Source: Halosimplex pelagicum (GTDB taxonomy: Archaea; Halobacteriota; Halobacteria; Halobacteriales; Haloarculaceae). From it: a stretch of DNA of 64,000 bases. The position numbers and the translations under genes are program-made. The notes under the pieces are model-generated. The model had not been told where the DNA came from, searched no databases, and saw only the letters and a list, made by a program, of their open reading frames with translations. Shown one piece after another: positions 38,430 to 47,320 of the stretch (the first letter of the stretch is position 1; every line of letters starts with the position of its first letter). The stretch lies in the NCBI RefSeq assembly GCF_013415905.1, contig NZ_CP058909.1:2852001-2916000 (forward strand), in the 5' to 3' direction.

Positions 38430-40394
38430 TCAGCGACGGTCCGTGTCGTGGAGCCGGTCGACGCTGTCGACGAGTTCTCGGACCGAGCGGGTCTGGGAGT
38501 CGGTCGTCTCGACGATGCGGCGGGCCGCGGCCTCGGCGTCTTCGGCGTGGCTGCGGGCCTCCTCGATGGTGGTCGTGACGCCTTCGATGGCGTCGGCCTG
38601 GCTGTCGTTGGCGTCGGCGACCTCCTCGATGCCGTCGGCGGTCTCGTCGACCGCGTCGGCGATGTCGTCCAGCGCGTCGAGCGCTTCGGCGATCCCTTGC
38701 TCGGCTTCCCGGATCTGGGCGCTCGACGCCCGGACGCTGTCGACGGTCTCGTTGGCCTGCGACTGGACCTCCGTGACGGTGCGGGAGATCTCGTCGGCGT
38801 ACTCGCTCGTCTCCGAGGCGAGCGTCTTCACCTCGTCGGCGACGACGGCGAAGCCTTCGCCGGACTCGCCGGCGCGAGCCGCCTCGATGTTGGCGTTCAG
38901 CGCGAGCATGTTCGTCTGCTCGGCCACGTCGGCGATGATCTCGATGACCTCGTTGACCTCGTCCATCCGGTCCTCCAGCTCGGTGACGTTGTCGACGAGG
39001 TCGTCGCTGGTGTCGGTGAGTTCGCTCGTGACGGTCTTGGCCGTCTCGCCGGCCCGCTCGCCCGCCTCGACGGAGTCGCGGGCGCGGTCCGCGGCCGCCG
39101 CCACCTGGTTGGAGGTGGCCGCGATCTCCTCCATCGTCGCGCTGACGTTCTGGACGTCCTCGGCCGCCTCCGCGAGGATACGGTTCTGCTCGGTGACGGC
39201 CGACTCGATCTCGTCGGCCGCGGCGGCCGACTCGTCGGTGGCGGCCGCCAGGTTCCCGGCGTTGTCGTCGACCCGCTCGATCAGGTCCGCGAGCGTGCTC
39301 GCCATCTCGTTGAGCTCGTCGACGACGTTCAGCAGCGACGCGTCGACGTGGCCCTCGGCGTTGTCGAACGACGCGCGGGCGTCCAGATCACCCGTCTGGA
39401 TGGCCCGCATCGTCGCCTCCAGCTCGCCCACCAGGTCGGAGGTGCGCTCGTGGCGGAGCACGTCGGCGGTGCGGTCCTGGACCATCTCGACGACCGCGAT
39501 CAGCTCGCCGTCCTCGTAGATCGGCGCCGCGGAGAAGGAGATGTGGACCTCCTCGCCGTGCTGGTCCTGCATCACGCTCGTGTCGCGATAGAGGGTAAAG
39601 GAGGCGTCCTCGACCCTCGGTACGTCGTAGACCTCGTCGGTCCGCTCGGGCGCGTCTATCACCTTGTCGGCGAGCGTCTTCCCCCGTCGACCGTCCGGGT
39701 AGAAGGCCATGCTCGCCATCTCCATGGCCTGGGCCTCCGCCTCGGGGACGCCGGTCAACCGCTCGAGCTGGGCGTTCCACGTCAGGATCTCCCCCTCGGC
39801 GTCGAGGACGAACAGCGGCGTCCCGACGTGGTGGAGCACGTCGTGGTAGTCCAGCGAGTCCGCGCCGGGCGCGGGGCTCGGATCCGACCCCGACTCGGTC
39901 GCGTCGGCGCCGTCCGCCCCGTCCGCCGCTCGCCGCTCGTAGGCCCCGGCGCCGGCGGCGAACACGTCGGTCGCCCGGTCGAGGCCGTCGCGCAGTTCCT
40001 CGCGGGCCTCGTCGACGGCGGTCGCCGCGTCCCCGTCGAGGTCCGCGCGGAGCCGGTCGAAGACGGCGTCGACGAGGGCGTCGGTCACGACGCGCTGGCT
40101 CTCGCCGAACGACCGCGCGTCGACACCGGCGGCGCGATACTCGCCGACGAGCTCGTCGACGGCGTCGCCCTCCACCTCGAAGAGGTCGCGGACGTGACGG
40201 TCGCCGACCGCGGCGGGTTCGGTCCCGCCGTACACCTCGTCGAGGGCGTCGAGGTCGGGGTCGTATCGCCGTGCGAGCGAGTCGCCGGTTTCGAGCGTCG
40301 ACCCGCCGTCCGGTTCGGCCCGCGGTTCGCCGCTCCCGCCGCCGACCCGGTCCCGGAGACGACGGAGTATCGACTCCTGTGAGCGCTCGGTCAT
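38430..40394 (-). CDS. Soluble methyl-accepting chemotaxis transducer (Htr)
   Basis: The 654-residue protein has no membrane helix. Residues 40-155 form an N-terminal helical sensor that resembles the globin-coupled/protoglobin-like region of soluble haloarchaeal transducers (DLDALDEVYGG, LVDAVFDRL); that resemblance is weak. A PAS domain (DVLHHVGTPLFVLDAEGEIL, about 190-310), a short HAMP-like segment and the signalling coiled coil follow, with the invariant hairpin tip EQTNMLALNANIEAARAGE. Glu/Gln-rich methylation helices flank the tip. It should signal to CheA/CheW from the cytosol. It is divergent from the first acs-like gene. Confidence 0.92.
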   Translation of the reverse strand: MTERSQESILRRLRDRVGGGSGEPRAEPDGGSTLETGDSLARRYDPDLDALDEVYGGTEPAAVGDRHVRDLFEVEGDAVDELVGEYRAAGVDARSFGESQRVVTDALVDAVFDRLRADLDGDAATAVDEAREELRDGLDRATDVFAAGAGAYERRAADGADGADATESGSDPSPAPGADSLDYHDVLHHVGTPLFVLDAEGEILTWNAQLERLTGVPEAEAQAMEMASMAFYPDGRRGKTLADKVIDAPERTDEVYDVPRVEDASFTLYRDTSVMQDQHGEEVHISFSAAPIYEDGELIAVVEMVQDRTADVLRHERTSDLVGELEATMRAIQTGDLDARASFDNAEGHVDASLLNVVDELNEMASTLADLIERVDDNAGNLAAATDESAAAADEIESAVTEQNRILAEAAEDVQNVSATMEEIAATSNQVAAAADRARDSVEAGERAGETAKTVTSELTDTSDDLVDNVTELEDRMDEVNEVIEIIADVAEQTNMLALNANIEAARAGESGEGFAVVADEVKTLASETSEYADEISRTVTEVQSQANETVDSVRASSAQIREAEQGIAEALDALDDIADAVDETADGIEEVADANDSQADAIEGVTTTIEEARSHAEDAEAAARRIVETTDSQTRSVRELVDSVDRLHDTDRR

Positions 40395-40711
40395 CCGTCC
40401 GTGCCAACGACGATTTCCTACATAAACATACGGTATAAATTATCGATTCGAATAACGGAATACGGCTCTTTTCGGCCATCTGAGCGGGAATATACGGTCT
40501 TCGGTGCGGTCACGAAAACACGGGGGACGGCGAGGGGCAGGCGTGGAGATCCCCGCGACTCGCGGCGGACGGGCCGGGACGAAAGCGGACCGTCGAGGCG
40601 TGACCGGCCCGGGGGCTCGCACCGGCCGAGCGCCGGCGGCGAGGCCGAGAACGGGTGGTCCGGTGAGAGCGCACGGATCATTTATGTCGTTGCCCGCGCC
40701 AGTCACACGGG
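40395..40711. promoter_or_regulatory. 317-base divergent promoter region of the transducer and the acs-like gene
   Basis: No gene is visible. Next to the transducer, an AT-rich block around 40423-40447 contains, on the minus strand, AATTTATACC, fitting a TATA box near -40 from its ATG. On the plus side CATTTATGTC (40679-40688) lies near -28 from the acs-like ATG at 40712. The middle is GC-rich. Confidence 0.6.
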
Positions 40712-42628
40712 ATGGACGACGAGTCGGTCGTCGAGACCAACCCGCGCGACCGGGACGGGGTCGACCCGTCTGCGGCGTTCGCCGAGCAGGCCAACGTCTC
40801 CGCGGCGGACGCGGCGGCGTTCGAGGGCGAGTGGCCCGACTGCTGGGGCCGGGCGGGCGAGATGCTGGAGTGGCTCGACCCCCCGGAGGCGACGTTCGAG
40901 TCGGCGGGCGACGGCGGACGGTGGTTCCCGGGCGGGCAGTTGAACGCCTCGGTCGACTGCGTCGACCGCCACCTCGACGACCGCAAGACGCAGGCGGCGA
41001 TCAAGTGGATCGGCAAGCGTGGCGAGCGCCGGACGTACACCTACCTGGACCTCTACCACGAGGTCAACGAGTTCGCCGCCGGCCTCCGGTCGCTGGGCAT
41101 CGGCGAGGGCGACGTGGTGACGCTGTACATGCCGGCGATCCCCGAGTTGCCGATCGCGATGCTGGCCTGCGCCCGCATCGGCGCGCCGCACAACGTCGTG
41201 TTCGCCGGCTTCTCCGCGGCGGCGCTGGCCGAGCGCATGGAGCGGGCCGACTCCGAGTACCTGGTCACCTGCGACGGCTACTACCGGCGGGGCAACGCGA
41301 TCCACCAGAAGAACAAGGCCGACAACGCCTGCCTGTCGGTCCCCCACGAGGTGACCGAGACCGTGGTCGTCGAGCGACTGGACGACGAGAGCGTCCAGCT
41401 GGGCGAGGGGGACCGCGCCTACGACGACCTGCTGGCCGCCCACCGCGGCGCCGAAGTCGACCCCGTCGCCCGGGCCGCCAACGACCCGCTCTTTCTCATC
41501 TACACCTCGGGGACGACCGGCGAGCCGACCGAAGTCCGGCACACGACGGGCGGCTATCTCGCCCACGCGACGTGGACGAGCCACGCCGTGCTCGACCTCA
41601 AACCCGAGGACACCTACTGGTGTTCGGCCGACATCGGGTGGATCACCGGCCACACGTATCTGGTGTACGGCCCGCTCTCGCTGGGGACGACGACGATGCT
41701 CTACGAGGGGACGCCCGACCACCCCGAGAAGGACCGCGTGTGGGAGCTCATCGAGCGCAACGCCGTCGACGTGTTCTACACGGCGCCGACGGCCATCCGC
41801 GCGTTCATGAAGTGGGGCGCCGAGCACCCCGACTCGCACGACCTGTCGAGCCTGCGCCTGCTCGGCTCGGTCGGCGAACCGCTCAACCCCAGCGCCTGGT
41901 GGTGGTACTACGAGCACGTCGGCGGCGGAGAGTGTCCCATCGTCGACACGTGGTGGCAGACCGAGACCGGGGCCATCCTGCTGTCGACCCTGCCTGGCGT
42001 CGACCGGATGAAACCCGGCTCCACCGGGCCGCCGCTGCCGGGCATCGACGTGGCGGTGGTCGGCCCCGACGGCGAGGAGACGACGGCGGCGGAGGGCGGA
42101 CGCCTCGCCGTCACGAGGCCCTGGCCGGGCATGCCCCTGAGCCTGGACGGGGACGAGCGCGCCGACGAGTGGCGCTACGTCACCGAGGACATCGCTCGCA
42201 TCGACGAGGACGGCTACGTCACCGTCCTCGGCCGCATCGACGACACCGTCACCGTCGGCAACCACCGCCTCGGGACGACCGAACTCGAACGCGCCATCGC
42301 CGACGTGGCCGGCGTCGCCGAGGCGGCCATCGTCGACGTGCGCGACGGGAGCGACAACTCCATCTTCGCGTTCGTCAGCACCGACGACCGCCACGAGGCC
42401 GAACGGGACCTGCGCGAGCGCATCACCGACAACGTCGAGCGCTCGATCGGGACCTTCGCCGTCCCCGAGACGTTCGTGTTCACCCCCGAACTCCCGAAGA
42501 CCCGCTCGGGCAAACTGATGCGTCGCCTGCTCAAGGATATCGCCGACGACGACGAACTCGGCGACACCAGCGCGCTCCGCAACCCCGAGATCGTCGGCGA
42601 GATCCGCTCCGCGCTCGACCGCGAGTGA
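40712..42628 (+). CDS. AMP-forming acyl/acetyl-CoA synthetase paralogue
   Basis: The 638-residue protein belongs to the ANL superfamily and is close to acetyl-CoA synthetase: ARIGAPHNVVFAGFSAAAL, EDTYWCSADIGWITGHTY, GAEHPDSHDLSSLRLLGSVGEP, DTWWQTETGAILL and C-terminal LPKTRSGKLMRRLL with the catalytic lysine. Two core motifs deviate. The phosphate loop reads TSGTTGEPTEVRHTTGG, where relatives have TGKPKGV or TGQPKG, so its lysine is lost. The hinge reads GRIDDTVTVGNHRLG where GRxDDVxNVSGHRLG is usual. It may use another acid or be impaired. TATA-like box near -28. Confidence 0.88.
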   Translation: MDDESVVETNPRDRDGVDPSAAFAEQANVSAADAAAFEGEWPDCWGRAGEMLEWLDPPEATFESAGDGGRWFPGGQLNASVDCVDRHLDDRKTQAAIKWIGKRGERRTYTYLDLYHEVNEFAAGLRSLGIGEGDVVTLYMPAIPELPIAMLACARIGAPHNVVFAGFSAAALAERMERADSEYLVTCDGYYRRGNAIHQKNKADNACLSVPHEVTETVVVERLDDESVQLGEGDRAYDDLLAAHRGAEVDPVARAANDPLFLIYTSGTTGEPTEVRHTTGGYLAHATWTSHAVLDLKPEDTYWCSADIGWITGHTYLVYGPLSLGTTTMLYEGTPDHPEKDRVWELIERNAVDVFYTAPTAIRAFMKWGAEHPDSHDLSSLRLLGSVGEPLNPSAWWWYYEHVGGGECPIVDTWWQTETGAILLSTLPGVDRMKPGSTGPPLPGIDVAVVGPDGEETTAAEGGRLAVTRPWPGMPLSLDGDERADEWRYVTEDIARIDEDGYVTVLGRIDDTVTVGNHRLGTTELERAIADVAGVAEAAIVDVRDGSDNSIFAFVSTDDRHEAERDLRERITDNVERSIGTFAVPETFVFTPELPKTRSGKLMRRLLKDIADDDELGDTSALRNPEIVGEIRSALDRE

Positions 42629-42757
42629 GCGCCCCGCCGATCCCCGTCTGTTTCGCTCTCCGAACGCTCGGCGAAACCGTTTTCGACCCCTCGAACGCCG
42701 ATCTGTGGCAGCCGCTCACTGAATCGGCCCTCTCTCCGCCACGCTGGCGAACCTTTA

Positions 42758-42783
42758 TTTCGCAAGCGACCGTCTTCGCGAAA
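42758..42783. promoter_or_regulatory. Inverted repeat overlapping the regulator's promoter
   Basis: TTTCGC (42758-42763) and GCGAAA (42778-42783) are separated by 14 bases, directly downstream of the TATA-like ACCTTTATTT (42751-42760) and just before the ATG at 42792. The position suits an operator, possibly autoregulatory; six-base arms alone are weak evidence. Confidence 0.3.
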
Positions 42784-42791
42784 CGGTTGTT

Positions 42792-45128
42792 ATGGGACAG
42801 CGTACCAGGGACCCCGACGACGCCGCCGAACCGCTGACGGCCGCGGCCTACGAGCGGCTGCGGCGGGCGGCGACGACCTACCGGGAGTCGGTCGTCGTCC
42901 GTCTCTGCGGCGAGGTCGGCCTCAGCCCGGCGGAAGTGGCGCGGGTCCGCCCCGACGACTTCCGGACGGTGTCGACGCGCGCGGGGACCCACCACCTGCT
43001 GACGGTCGTCGACGACGAGGGCGACGCCGTCAGGGACGCCCACGTCCCGGCGGACGTGCGGTCGGCCGTCGAGCGGTACGCGAACGAGCGGGGGATCGGC
43101 GGCGACGAGCGGGTCGTCGCCGTGACGCCCCGCCGGATCCAGATGGTCGTCGGGGAGGTCGGCGAGCGGGCGGCCGAGCGCAGTGGCGACGACCGGTTGC
43201 GGACCGTCTCCTCGACCGACCTCCGGGGGTACTACGCTCGGCGGCTCGTCCACGAGGCGGGCCTCGACCCGCGGGTCGTCCTCGCGATCGGTCCCTGGGA
43301 CGGGCTGGACGCGCTCTGTCGGCACCTCGACCCGGTGGGTATCGACGCCGTCCTCGGTTCGCTCGAACGGGCGGGGCTGGGCGGCCCGACGGCCGAGTGG
43401 ACGCCGGAGGACCTCGGGCGCGCGCTCGCGAGCGCCGACCTCCCCGTCGTCGTCACCGACGCAGACGGCGCCGTCGCCTTCGCAAACGACGGCCTCGCGG
43501 CGCTGACCGAGCGGTCGGGCGGCGACCTGGTCGGCGAACCCGCGGCCGCGCTCTATCACGACGGCGCTCGTCCGCCCGCCGAGACGAGCGACCCGACGCG
43601 AGTTCGGCTGGCCGGCCCGGACGGCGACCCGGTACCGGTCGTCCGGGTCGCGGCGCCGCTGAACGGCGACCCAGCGCGGCGAGGCCGCCGAATCGCCGTC
43701 TTCGTCGAGCGCGAGGCGAGCGCCGAGCGCGCCGGTGAACCGGCCGACCGCGCGGACGCGAACGGCCGACGCCCGGACCCGGACGGTCCACGCCCGGACC
43801 CGGACGGTCCACGCCCGGACCCGGACGGCCCGAACGTGTCTGTGGGCTCGAACGGGCGCGGCGACCTCGCCGTGGACGACGGCGCGGACGGGTCCGCTCC
43901 CGCGGACGCCGACGGGACCGACGCACCGGCCGGTGCGTCGGTCCCCGCCCGCGTGGCGGACACGATCGGGGCGCTCGGGGCGGTCGCGGAGGTGCTCGCG
44001 GCGGCCTCGAAGCGGACGGAGGTCGCCTCGCGGGTCTGCGACCGGCTGGCCGCGACCGACGGCTACGAGTTCGCGTGGGTCGGCTCGGCGACGGGCGACC
44101 GGGGCGTCGTCTCGGCGGCCTGGACCGGGATCGACGAGGCGACCGCCGAGGCGCTGGCCGAGACCGCCACCGACGACGTGGACGTCCACGGCGTCGCCGC
44201 CGACCAGCCGGGCGAGGTCCGCACGCTCCCGACCGGCGAGCGCGAGGCGCCGCTTCGCCCCATCGAGACGGACGGCGACGGGCCGGGCGTCGACGCCGTC
44301 GCCGTCGTCCCGATCACCTACGGCGACACGACCCACGGTCTGCTCGCGCTGGGAGCGACCGGTGACGACGCCTTCGGGAGCGACGAGCGCGAGCTGCTGG
44401 CCAGCGTCGGCTGGCAGATCGGCCAGGCGATCACCGACATCAAGCGGCGGAATCTCCTGCTGGCCGACAGCGTCACGGAGCTGGAGTTCCGCGTCGAGAG
44501 CGAGCGCGCCTTTTTCGTCGCGGCTAGCGGGGCTCTGGACGCGGCGTTCGAACTCCAGGGGCTCGTCCCCGGCGAGGGCGGGAGCCTGCTGTACTTCGTG
44601 ACGATGCGCGGCGCCTCGCCCGAGGACGTCGTCGACTTCGCGGCCGACGCCGACGGCATCGAGAACGCCCGGCTGATCCGCGACTACGGCGAGCGCTACC
44701 TCGTCGAGTTCGTCGTCGCCGGCGAGGAGCCCGCGACGACGCTGACGGAACTGGGCGGCCACGTCACCGAGTTCACCGTCGAGGACGGCGCTCAGCGCGT
44801 CACCGCCGAGTTCACCACCGAGACGGACGTTCGGACCGTCTTCAACGGCTTCCAGTCGGCCTTCTCCGAGTCGGCGCTGTTCTCGAAACACGAGGTCGAG
44901 CGACCCGTCCAGACGACCGACGGCTTCCGCCGCTCGCTGGAGGACGATTTGACCGACAAACAGCAGTCGGTCCTGCGGGCGGCCTACCTCGCCGGCTACT
45001 TCGAGTGGCCCCGCGGGTCGACCGCCGAGGAACTCGCCGACTCCATCGGCGTCTCCTCGCCCACGCTCCACAACCACCTCCGGAAGGCCCAGCAGAAACT
45101 GCTCACCGCATTCTTCGACGACGAGTGA
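42792..45128 (+). CDS. Bat-type regulator with N-terminal tyrosine-recombinase-like domain
   Basis: A 778-residue protein in five parts. Residues 15-185 look like a degenerate tyrosine recombinase catalytic fold (YRESVVVRLCGEVGLSPAEV near TGLRxSEl; TDLRGYYARRLVHEAGLD near HDLRHTFATHL; GPWDGLDAL near the LGH box), with the first Arg, both His and the Tyr nucleophile all replaced. Residues 205-315 form a PAS-like domain. Then comes a Pro/Asp linker with three 21-base repeats (43770-43832), a GAF domain (about 385-560) and the Bat region. An HTH_10 (DKQQSVLRAAYLAGYFEWPR, then SIGVSSPTLHNHLRKAQ) forms the C-terminus. It lies between two acs genes on the same strand and is likely their regulator. 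Confidence 0.85.
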   Translation: MGQRTRDPDDAAEPLTAAAYERLRRAATTYRESVVVRLCGEVGLSPAEVARVRPDDFRTVSTRAGTHHLLTVVDDEGDAVRDAHVPADVRSAVERYANERGIGGDERVVAVTPRRIQMVVGEVGERAAERSGDDRLRTVSSTDLRGYYARRLVHEAGLDPRVVLAIGPWDGLDALCRHLDPVGIDAVLGSLERAGLGGPTAEWTPEDLGRALASADLPVVVTDADGAVAFANDGLAALTERSGGDLVGEPAAALYHDGARPPAETSDPTRVRLAGPDGDPVPVVRVAAPLNGDPARRGRRIAVFVEREASAERAGEPADRADANGRRPDPDGPRPDPDGPRPDPDGPNVSVGSNGRGDLAVDDGADGSAPADADGTDAPAGASVPARVADTIGALGAVAEVLAAASKRTEVASRVCDRLAATDGYEFAWVGSATGDRGVVSAAWTGIDEATAEALAETATDDVDVHGVAADQPGEVRTLPTGEREAPLRPIETDGDGPGVDAVAVVPITYGDTTHGLLALGATGDDAFGSDERELLASVGWQIGQAITDIKRRNLLLADSVTELEFRVESERAFFVAASGALDAAFELQGLVPGEGGSLLYFVTMRGASPEDVVDFAADADGIENARLIRDYGERYLVEFVVAGEEPATTLTELGGHVTEFTVEDGAQRVTAEFTTETDVRTVFNGFQSAFSESALFSKHEVERPVQTTDGFRRSLEDDLTDKQQSVLRAAYLAGYFEWPRGSTAEELADSIGVSSPTLHNHLRKAQQKLLTAFFDDE
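43770..43832. repeat. Three 21-base tandem repeats inside the Bat-type gene
   Basis: The unit starts CGCCCGGACCCGGACGG and is repeated three times (the third with two changes), encoding Arg-Pro-Asp-Pro-Asp-Gly-Pro in the inter-domain linker. Length is a multiple of three, so the frame is kept. Copy number may vary between strains. Confidence 0.85.
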
Positions 45129-45223
45129 CAGGTCGGTTGTCCGGTACCGGCCGCAGATACCGCGGCCGCCTCCGGCGGTCAGCGCCGCCCGTGACAGGTG
45201 TCAACATAGATAGTTAGACGGTT

Positions 45224-45233
45224 CGCTTAAGAG
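45224..45233 (+). promoter_or_regulatory. TATA box of acs
   Basis: CGCTTAAGAG sits about 28-37 bases before an upstream ATG (45261) and about 85 bases before the acs ATG. It predicts a transcript start near 45255 and a leader that contains a short uORF. Confidence 0.55.
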
Positions 45234-45316: not shown

Positions 45317-47320
45317 ATGTCCGACGACGGCTCCCCACTCGAATCGCGGCTGACCGAACAGGAGTACTTCCGGCCGCCGACCGACTTCGTCGGCCAGGCC
45401 AACGTCAGCGACCCCGAGATCTACGACCGCTTCGACGAGAACTACCCCGACGCCTTCGAGGAGTACGCCGAACTCCTCGACTGGGACGAACACTGGGACG
45501 AGGTGCTCGACGACTCGAACCCGCCGTTCTACGAGTGGTTCACGGGCGGCCAGCTCAACGCCTCCTACAACTGCATCGACCGCCATCTGGAGGAGCGCAA
45601 GAACCAGGCGGCGTTCATCTGGGAGGGCACCGACAGCGAGGAGCGCGAGACGATCACCTACCAGGACCTCTACAACCGCGTCAACGCGGCCGCCGCGTCG
45701 CTGCGGGACGTGGGCGTCGAGGAGGACGACGTGGTCACCTGCCACCTCCCGATGCTGCCCGCGCTGCCGGTGACGATGCTGGCCTGTGCCCGCATCGGCG
45801 TGCCCCACTCGGAGGTGTTCGCCGGCTTCTCCGCGCAGGCGCTCGCGGACCGCATCGACGACGCCGATTCGGACGTGGTCGTCACCTGCGACGGCTACTA
45901 CCGCCGCGGCGAGTTCCTCAACCACAAGGAGAAGTGCGACGAGGCGCTCGAACTCGCCGAGTCCGACGTAGACAGCGTCGTCCTCTGGACCCGCCACGAC
46001 GAACTCCACGAGGATGTCGAGATCGACAGCGACGACCCGTACGTGCTGGCCGACGACCTGCTGGCCGAGAACGAACGGGCCCGCGTCGACCCCGTCTCCC
46101 GCGACGCCGAGGACCCCCTGTTCCTCATGTACACCTCCGGGACGACGGGCCAGCCCAAGGGCTGCCAGCACCGCACCGGCGGCTACATGTCCTACGTCAC
46201 CGCAACCAGCAAGTACGTCCTCGACATCGAACCCGAGGACACCTACTGGTGTGCCGCCGACATCGGGTGGATCACGGGCCACTCCTACATCGTCTACGGG
46301 CCCCTCTCGCTGGGGACCACGAGCGTGATGTACGAGGACACCCCGGACCACCCCCACAAGGGCCGCATCTGGGAGATCGCCGAACGCTACGACGTGGACA
46401 TCTTCCACACCTCGCCGACCGCCGTCCGGATGTTCATGAAGTGGGGCGCCGAGCACGTCGACGAGTACGACTTCGACTTCCGGCACATGACCACCGTCGG
46501 CGAGCCCATCCAGCCCGAGGCGTGGCTGTGGTACTACAAGCACATCGGCGACGAGGACGCCGTCATCGTCGACACGTGGTGGCAGACCGAGACCGGCGGC
46601 CACCTCATCACGAACCTCCCCGCACTGAAGGACATGAAGCCCGGCTCCGCGGGTCTGCCGGCGCCGGGCATCCAGCCCGCCCTCTACGACGACACCGGCG
46701 AACCCATGGAGCCCGCCAGCGGCAAGGCGGGGAACCTCGTCATCGAGAAACCCTGGCCCGGGATGTTACAGACCGTCTACGGCAACGACGAGCGGTTCAT
46801 CGAGGAGTACTGGCAGGACTTCTCCGACACCGACAGTTCGGACCCCGACGACTGGGTGTACAAGGCCGGCGACGGCGCCGTTCACGAGGACGACGGCTAC
46901 TTCCGCGTGCTGGGTCGGCTCGACGACGTGATGAACGTCGCCGGGCATCGCCTCGGCACGATGGAACTCGAATCCGCCGTCTCCGAGGTGCAGGACGTGG
47001 CGGAGGCCGCCGTCGCCGCACGCGATCACGACGAGAAGGGCGAGGTGCCCGACGTGTACGTCGTCGTCCGCGAGGGCGTCTCCGCCAGCAACGAGGAGGT
47101 CCGCGACCGCATCATCGAGGCCGTCGAGGACGAGATCGGCAAGTTCGCCCGGCCCGACCGCGTCGTCTTCGTCGAAGACCTTCCGAAGACCCGCTCGGGC
47201 AAGATCATGCGCCGCCTGCTGGAGAACATCTCCAACGGCGACGAACTCGGGAACACCACCACGCTGCGGGACCCGTCAGTCCCCGAGGACATCCGCGACC
47301 AGGTCCACGGCGACGACTAA
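45317..47320 (+). CDS. acs: Acetyl-CoA synthetase (AMP-forming)
   Basis: This 667-residue enzyme activates acetate to acetyl-CoA through acetyl-AMP. All ANL motifs are regular: phosphate loop TSGTTGQPKGCQHRTGGY, DTYWCAADIGWITGHSY, DTWWQTETGGHLI, hinge LGRLDDVMNVAGHRLGTMELE and the C-terminal PKTRSGKIMRRLL with the catalytic lysine. The tryptophan of WWQTETG that limits the acyl pocket to acetate is present. It is the regular partner of the deviant paralogue 2.7 kb upstream; the Bat-type regulator lies between them. A strong hairpin follows the stop. Confidence 0.95.
   Translation: MSDDGSPLESRLTEQEYFRPPTDFVGQANVSDPEIYDRFDENYPDAFEEYAELLDWDEHWDEVLDDSNPPFYEWFTGGQLNASYNCIDRHLEERKNQAAFIWEGTDSEERETITYQDLYNRVNAAAASLRDVGVEEDDVVTCHLPMLPALPVTMLACARIGVPHSEVFAGFSAQALADRIDDADSDVVVTCDGYYRRGEFLNHKEKCDEALELAESDVDSVVLWTRHDELHEDVEIDSDDPYVLADDLLAENERARVDPVSRDAEDPLFLMYTSGTTGQPKGCQHRTGGYMSYVTATSKYVLDIEPEDTYWCAADIGWITGHSYIVYGPLSLGTTSVMYEDTPDHPHKGRIWEIAERYDVDIFHTSPTAVRMFMKWGAEHVDEYDFDFRHMTTVGEPIQPEAWLWYYKHIGDEDAVIVDTWWQTETGGHLITNLPALKDMKPGSAGLPAPGIQPALYDDTGEPMEPASGKAGNLVIEKPWPGMLQTVYGNDERFIEEYWQDFSDTDSSDPDDWVYKAGDGAVHEDDGYFRVLGRLDDVMNVAGHRLGTMELESAVSEVQDVAEAAVAARDHDEKGEVPDVYVVVREGVSASNEEVRDRIIEAVEDEIGKFARPDRVVFVEDLPKTRSGKIMRRLLENISNGDELGNTTTLRDPSVPEDIRDQVHGDD

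Follow-up and report, generated by a model that had tools for sequence, protein, structure and literature searches.

In the main text of Badel, Da Cunha and Oberto (2021, PMC8371274) the family fam30-04 is described with the domains Phage_integrase, BAT and HTH_10, in some members also GAF_2, and is counted among the archaeal tyrosine recombinases. The fusion proteins analyzed here are very probably the same proteins. All three domains were found with Pfam in 9 of 10 sampled full-length fusions, and in the protein of our window by profile and fold. As far as that main text goes, the domain architecture of the fusion is already known; catalytic loss, acs linkage, promoter sites and a regulatory role were not found in the passages considered here. 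New is the inverted repeat in the fusion gene's own promoter. The GAF-BAT-HTH_10 half and the size are also shared with the haloarchaeal regulators of the bacterio-opsin-activator type (Bat/HTH_10), of which the window genome contains many paralogues. In comparison to these the fusion adds an N-terminal recombinase fold, an acs cassette and dyads in its own promoter. Plasmid copies are publicly annotated as "bacterio-opsin activator domain-containing protein". Standalone haloarchaeal "site-specific integrases" of about 200 aa are homologous to the entire N-terminal domain (hhalign E = 6e-47) and have upstream dyads of the same span; unlike the fusion they possess intact catalytic residues, lack sensor and HTH domains and are located on plasmids and viral contigs. 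A further parallel are the Crypton-derived eukaryotic regulators (DUF3504 proteins, Gcr1, Cbf2), which in the portion of Kojima and Jurka (2011, PMC3212892) considered here are presented as domesticated tyrosine recombinases that lost their catalytic residues. They go back to independent eukaryotic events from transposons, and the same portion describes no conserved dyads in their own promoters.

The window, a stretch of 64,000 bp of the Halosimplex pelagicum genome (NZ_CP058909.1, positions 2,852,001 to 2,916,000), contains such a fusion gene on one strand with two acs genes, at a distance of 164 bp from the upstream and 189 bp from the downstream copy. The original prediction had placed a regulator between two acs genes, and NCBIfam identifies both flanking genes as acetate--CoA ligases. 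From sequence and predicted structure we propose that a domesticated dead recombinase would hold a Bat-type acetate regulator at the promoter of its own gene, that the HTH_10 end would drive acs2, and that the fusion arose by one ancient joining of a catalytic-domain-only tyrosine recombinase and a PAS/GAF-BAT-HTH_10 regulator. We assign this explanation as a whole a probability of roughly 60%. It builds on the observed fold, single clade, catalytic loss, purifying selection, cassette and two promoter elements. The features of the locus are:

40712..42628, + strand: acs1, first AMP-forming acetate--CoA ligase of the cassette, upstream of the fusion gene (above the NCBIfam NF001208 cutoff; conserved position)
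42650..42677 (genome 2894651-2894676), no strand: distal dyad GTTTCG-N16-CGAAAC, 22 bp past the acs1 stop codon (motif search)
42754..42757, + strand: TTTA of the fusion gene's probable TATA box (GCGAACCTTTATT), read from the sequence
42757..42784 (genome 2894758-2894783), no strand: proximal dyad ATTTCG-N16-CGAAAC, beginning at the TATA box and ending shortly ahead of the start codon (motif search)
42792..45128, + strand: fusion gene, 778 aa, dead recombinase domain-PAS-linker-GAF-BAT-HTH_10 (ORF, Pfam, model)
42825..43379, + strand: tyrosine-recombinase catalytic-domain fold, residues 12-196 (profile, model, alignment of catalytic positions)
43128..43184, + strand: helix before box II, residues 113-131, probable base-reading helix (conservation, model, general Cre/Xer knowledge)
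43404..43709, + strand: PAS-like domain, residues 205-306 (weak in Pfam, visible in the model)
43974..44441, + strand: GAF domain, residues 395-550 (Pfam, model)
44466..44933, + strand: BAT domain (PF15915), residues 559-714 (Pfam)
44949..45104, + strand: HTH_10 DNA-binding domain, residues 720-771 (Pfam; near-constant within the genus)
45210..45229, + strand: acs2 promoter element ATAGTTAG with TATA region (ATAGTTAGACGGTTCGCTTA) (motif search)
45317..47320, + strand: acs2, second AMP-forming acetate--CoA ligase of the cassette, downstream of the fusion gene (above the NCBIfam cutoffs of TIGR02188 and NF001208; synteny)

The ORF begins with ATG. Pfam agrees with the GAF-Bat half and the HTH_10 at the opposite end that had been read from the letters (GAF_2 1.5e-10, BAT 4.3e-43, HTH_10 7e-21), the PAS match being weak; PF15915 (147.2 bits, cutoff 25.8) and PF04967 (74.2 bits, cutoff 23.1) exceed their curated cutoffs. 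In the full-length model (pLDDT 75.9) the recombinase fold is followed by the PAS-like domain, a disordered linker (residues 309-384), GAF, BAT and the HTH end. The PAS-like domain is missing from shorter fusions. The linker evolves fastest of all protein parts (dN/dS 0.54-1.1); at 43750-43830 it contains the peptide RPDPDGP three times.

When searched alone, the N-terminal 190 residues of the window protein gave no match in Pfam and XerA_Arch with E = 0.031 in NCBIfam. The domain is below detection as a single sequence, so the original prediction, which had recognized a recombinase layout in the N-terminal ~185 residues, caught what a single-sequence search misses. A profile of 26 fusion domains matched archaeal Xer structures along the entire domain (E = 1.5e-17 and 1.7e-9); taken individually, 22 of these domains matched Phage_integrase (E ≤ 0.1). 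An AlphaFold2 model of the domain from 66 sequences reached a pLDDT of 93.9 and a pTM of 0.86. Its best 50 matches in the PDB were tyrosine recombinases only (TM up to 0.69), including Cre and derivatives, XerA, XerH, IntI4, Tn1549 and other integrases; among viral matches the named ones were nearly all integrases or tyrosine recombinases. The profile comparison thus returned integrase matches and the predicted fold is that of a recombinase; neither an unrelated fold nor a search without integrase match, the outcomes named beforehand as speaking against the prediction, was observed. Residues 12-196 are a tyrosine-recombinase catalytic domain, Xer-like by profile and Cre/Xer-like by fold model. 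XerA/Cre-type recombinases share this fold, but have an N-terminal core-binding domain and the full catalytic residues, neither of which is found in the window protein.

The catalytic positions of the window protein are largely replaced: box I Arg by S45, the hairpin Lys by A79, box II His by T142 and the nucleophilic Tyr by H178. The claim that R145 (box II Arg) is the sole remainder has to be corrected in one point. Four positions are replaced and R145 is kept as stated, but W169 of box III is kept as well, leaving two of six; Trp is the ordinary residue there and occurs in 36 of 36 intact relatives. The window protein does not carry the R-K-H-R-H/W-Y set of active tyrosine recombinases. A hairpin Lys was found in one of 102 distinct fusions, the box II His in two and the nucleophilic Tyr in 46. 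Most fusions retain Arg I (86), Arg II (96) and Trp (94). All 36 standalone relatives have His, Arg II, Trp, Tyr and the hairpin Lys, and 35 of them Arg I. Judged by these alignments, catalytic loss appears as a trait of the entire fusion family and not of one decaying gene. Since Lys and His, the acid/base residues, are lost and the phosphate-contacting arginines often kept, the pattern would fit DNA binding without cutting. Consequently fam30-04, although counted among the archaeal recombinases, probably does not recombine DNA.

Relatives were collected by a profile search of genome contigs, which yielded 147 sequences of which 80 were kept; the window domain as single query gave no matches in these contigs, and an alignment query was required. 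The 102 distinct fusions are spread across Halobacteriales. Among 197 sampled genomes of the phylum, good matches were confined to this order, with two weak ones outside. In a quick tree of 87 domains a branch with an SH-aLRT of 99 separates the fusions from the other domains, and their neighbors are catalytically intact recombinases of ~200 aa, annotated as site-specific integrases on haloarchaeal plasmids, e.g. pNRC100. Relatives are also present on viral contigs; the fusion-type domain was not found on those searched. The dN/dS of the recombinase domain in close pairs is 0.19-0.28, similar to or lower than that of GAF and below that of the linker, pointing to purifying selection on the domain. 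Of all parts of the protein, HTH_10 is conserved best and hardly varies within the genus. This widespread archaeal case allows a direct comparison between intact relatives and the dead fusion, together with the probable DNA sites of each.

We then considered the genes next to the fusion. In all of 26 fusion loci an acs gene is located directly upstream on the same strand, and nearly always a second one downstream; no second copy was seen in L055, where the contig ends, and in L058. Among 77 named loci with a BAT part, acs was found upstream in 73 and downstream in 71 (≤1 kb, same strand), several of the acs-less exceptions being cut by contig ends. Of 92 loci with enough sequence behind the cassette, 73 have a DUF4212/ActP transporter gene downstream, as is annotated in Haloferax gibbonsii; it is absent from the window. 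The best acs2 homologue was without such a neighbor in 18 genomes that had been picked mostly for absence of the fusion. The acs7-first operon of H. volcanii (acs7-actP) is transcribed on acetate and not on glucose or casamino acids (PMC7746861), and by gene order acs7 occupies the acs2 position. On acetate, HFX_5129 and HFX_5131 of the H. mediterranei cluster are about threefold up (PMC11784441). The correspondence to both species rests on published gene order and sister Haloferax species; by its position between acs8 (HVO_A0158) and acs7 (HVO_A0156), HVO_A0157 is the presumed H. volcanii orthologue, and literature naming it was not found. The suggested connection to acetate gains support from the near-universal acs synteny, the frequent downstream actP and the acetate-specific induction of acs7-actP (PMC7746861). 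The fusion is a tangible candidate for the missing regulator of the acetate operon in haloarchaea, with two predicted operators. As a separate observation, a TTATC-N6-GATAA inverted repeat lies within the region 40395-40711 of the window, between a divergent chemotaxis-receptor gene (38430-40394, - strand) and acs1. It is conserved genus-wide and adjoins the start of the chemotaxis-receptor gene.

Motif discovery was carried out on intergenic DNA, as fixed upstream stretches of 300 bp had picked up coding ends. Two separate elements were obtained, one in the fusion promoter and one in front of acs2. The former is an inverted repeat TTTCG-N15/16-CGAAA, usually GTTTCG...CGAAAC. With ≤1 mismatch the N16 form has 72 sites in 54 of 95 promoters (shuffles 1.4) and the N15 form 41 sites in 30 promoters (shuffles 2.4); in acs1 and acs2 promoters the dyad stays at background level. 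A weight matrix detects at least one dyad in 90 of the 95 fusion promoters and two in 48. Dyads were discovered and counted on the same promoters, so that shuffles, the other cassette promoters and spacer shifts served as controls. The loci share descent, an effect that thinning at 60% domain identity reduces and does not remove: among the 37 loci below this identity the exact dyad is present in 27, the same arms at other spacings in 0-1, and no exact dyad was found in their acs1 or acs2 promoters. The two dyad centers in the window are 107 bp apart. The window genome contains six exact dyads in 5.2 Mb, two of them at the fusion promoter; elsewhere in the genomes exact dyads are few and near chance and do not outline a regulon, nor do we claim one. 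An identical dyad GTTTCGCGTAGTGATTGCCCGCGAAAT occurs away from fusion genes in two distant genomes (G029:C1:1510037-1510125 and G056:C1:619505-619531), in G029 with a second dyad at 62 bp. Helical phasing of paired dyads gave a Rayleigh peak near a period of 10-11 bp (p about 1e-3); we do not claim it, because the distances cluster around 97-107 bp and other periods score too.

With about half of the promoters flanked by two dyads, Tyr retained at the nucleophile position in 46 of 102 fusions and both Arg and Trp in most, part of the family might still act as a recombinase or nickase, for instance by inverting or cutting the DNA between the dyads. This is very improbable given the loss of Lys in 101 and of His in 100 of the 102 fusions, the His for Tyr and Ser for Arg I in the window protein, and a cassette gene order and orientation that are constant throughout. 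Even less credence is due to the idea that the dyads are RNA structures, either an acs1 terminator or a leader hairpin, instead of protein sites. The distal copy does lie just past the acs1 stop codon, with an RNA pairing of -13.5 kcal/mol, but folding is no better than in shuffles (z -0.9 and -1.4), in the predicted fold of the proximal copy the two arms do not pair with one another, the spacer and not the stem is the fixed feature, and the proximal dyad begins at the TATA box.

The second element, TT.g.AtA.tTAG, ends ~9 bp upstream of the acs2 TATA box. It was detected in 86 of 94 acs2 promoters of the cassette, in 2 of 102 acs1 promoters and in 0 of 103 fusion promoters. None of 18 acs2 homologues outside the cassette has it; these may be paralogues (like HVO_0894) and not orthologues, for which reason we regard the element as belonging to the cassette and not as evidence of loss elsewhere. 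Two more matches in the window genome precede a sugar-transferase-like and a pentapeptide-repeat-like gene; these two sites show no link to acetate, and the genome-wide matches outline no regulon.

Which domain reads which site can be approached through the standalone recombinases, which are without HTH_10. Upstream of 36 standalone genes, inverted repeats with a span of 25-30 bp were found in 23 cases versus 7.6 expected, several of them weak, and downstream in 10 versus 8.5 expected, which is not an enrichment. The start of many of these dyads falls 110-136 bp ahead of the gene, and at the start codon of some genes there is another full or half copy, a layout that resembles that of the fusions. 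Examples with a dyad at about -110 to -136 are L082, L088, L068, L072 and L039 (0-140 bp upstream of the standalone gene). Fusions and intact relatives both have an inverted repeat of constant span next to their genes, which we take as a putative site; a live standalone recombinase might use the promoter segment of its gene as a substrate or for autoregulation. The standalone homologue in the window genome carries CGTTTCACA-N12-TGTGAAACG, which contains TTTCA-N16-TGAAA and is similar to the dyad of the fusion. In Cre/Xer, bases are read by the helix that precedes box II. In 66 aligned fusions R114-R115-x-Q117-M118 of this helix is invariant and the dyad arms are nearly so, and the helix differs in standalone groups with other arms, e.g. 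GTCCG. From the dyads of the same span at genes lacking HTH_10 and from the invariant helix and arms we infer that the dyads are read by the recombinase domain and the acs2 element by HTH_10. The recruitment of the recombinase fold as a DNA-binding module, part of the original prediction, is thereby supported indirectly.

Alternatively, the recombinase fold might serve solely in oligomerisation or protein interaction, with HTH_10 reading both the dyads, for autoregulation, and the acs2 element. In other Bat-type regulators HTH_10 suffices for DNA binding, in the fusion protein it is the most conserved part, and tyrosine recombinases multimerise. We nevertheless consider this arrangement rather unlikely: dyad and acs2 element have no sequence in common, dyads of equal span and at matching positions precede the standalone genes in the absence of HTH_10, and the putative base-reading helix is invariant among the fusions.

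In the explanation that we prefer, the dead recombinase domain would, as a dimer, still bind the 27-28 bp dyads in the promoter of the regulator. Since the proximal dyad begins at the TATA box, binding would repress or tune the regulator's own gene. Where two dyads exist the domains may pair them, possibly into a loop. The HTH_10 end would bind the element beside the acs2 TATA box; GAF, together with PAS where present, may set the state of the protein in response to acetate or acyl-CoA status, and the switched regulator would turn on acs2 and the transporter genes behind it. Speaking against this explanation, about half of the promoters have one clear dyad only, dyads of suitable span number no more than 23 at the 36 standalone genes, several of them weak, and the genome-wide matches of dyad and acs2 element delimit no regulon. 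A more far-reaching version, which we put forward tentatively as a possibility on the less probable side, is that the dead recombinase kept both core-site recognition and two-site pairing and acts today as a DNA-looping regulator under sensor control, the two dyads around its promoter being operators derived from recombination or control sites of the ancestral recombinase.

In Haloferax denitrificans and in one metagenome genome (L133 7013-7675, L134 6977-7603) the fusion frame ends after ~210-220 aa, directly behind the recombinase domain, with acs2 still located downstream. These shortened frames could be due to a frameshift, an assembly error or a split gene.
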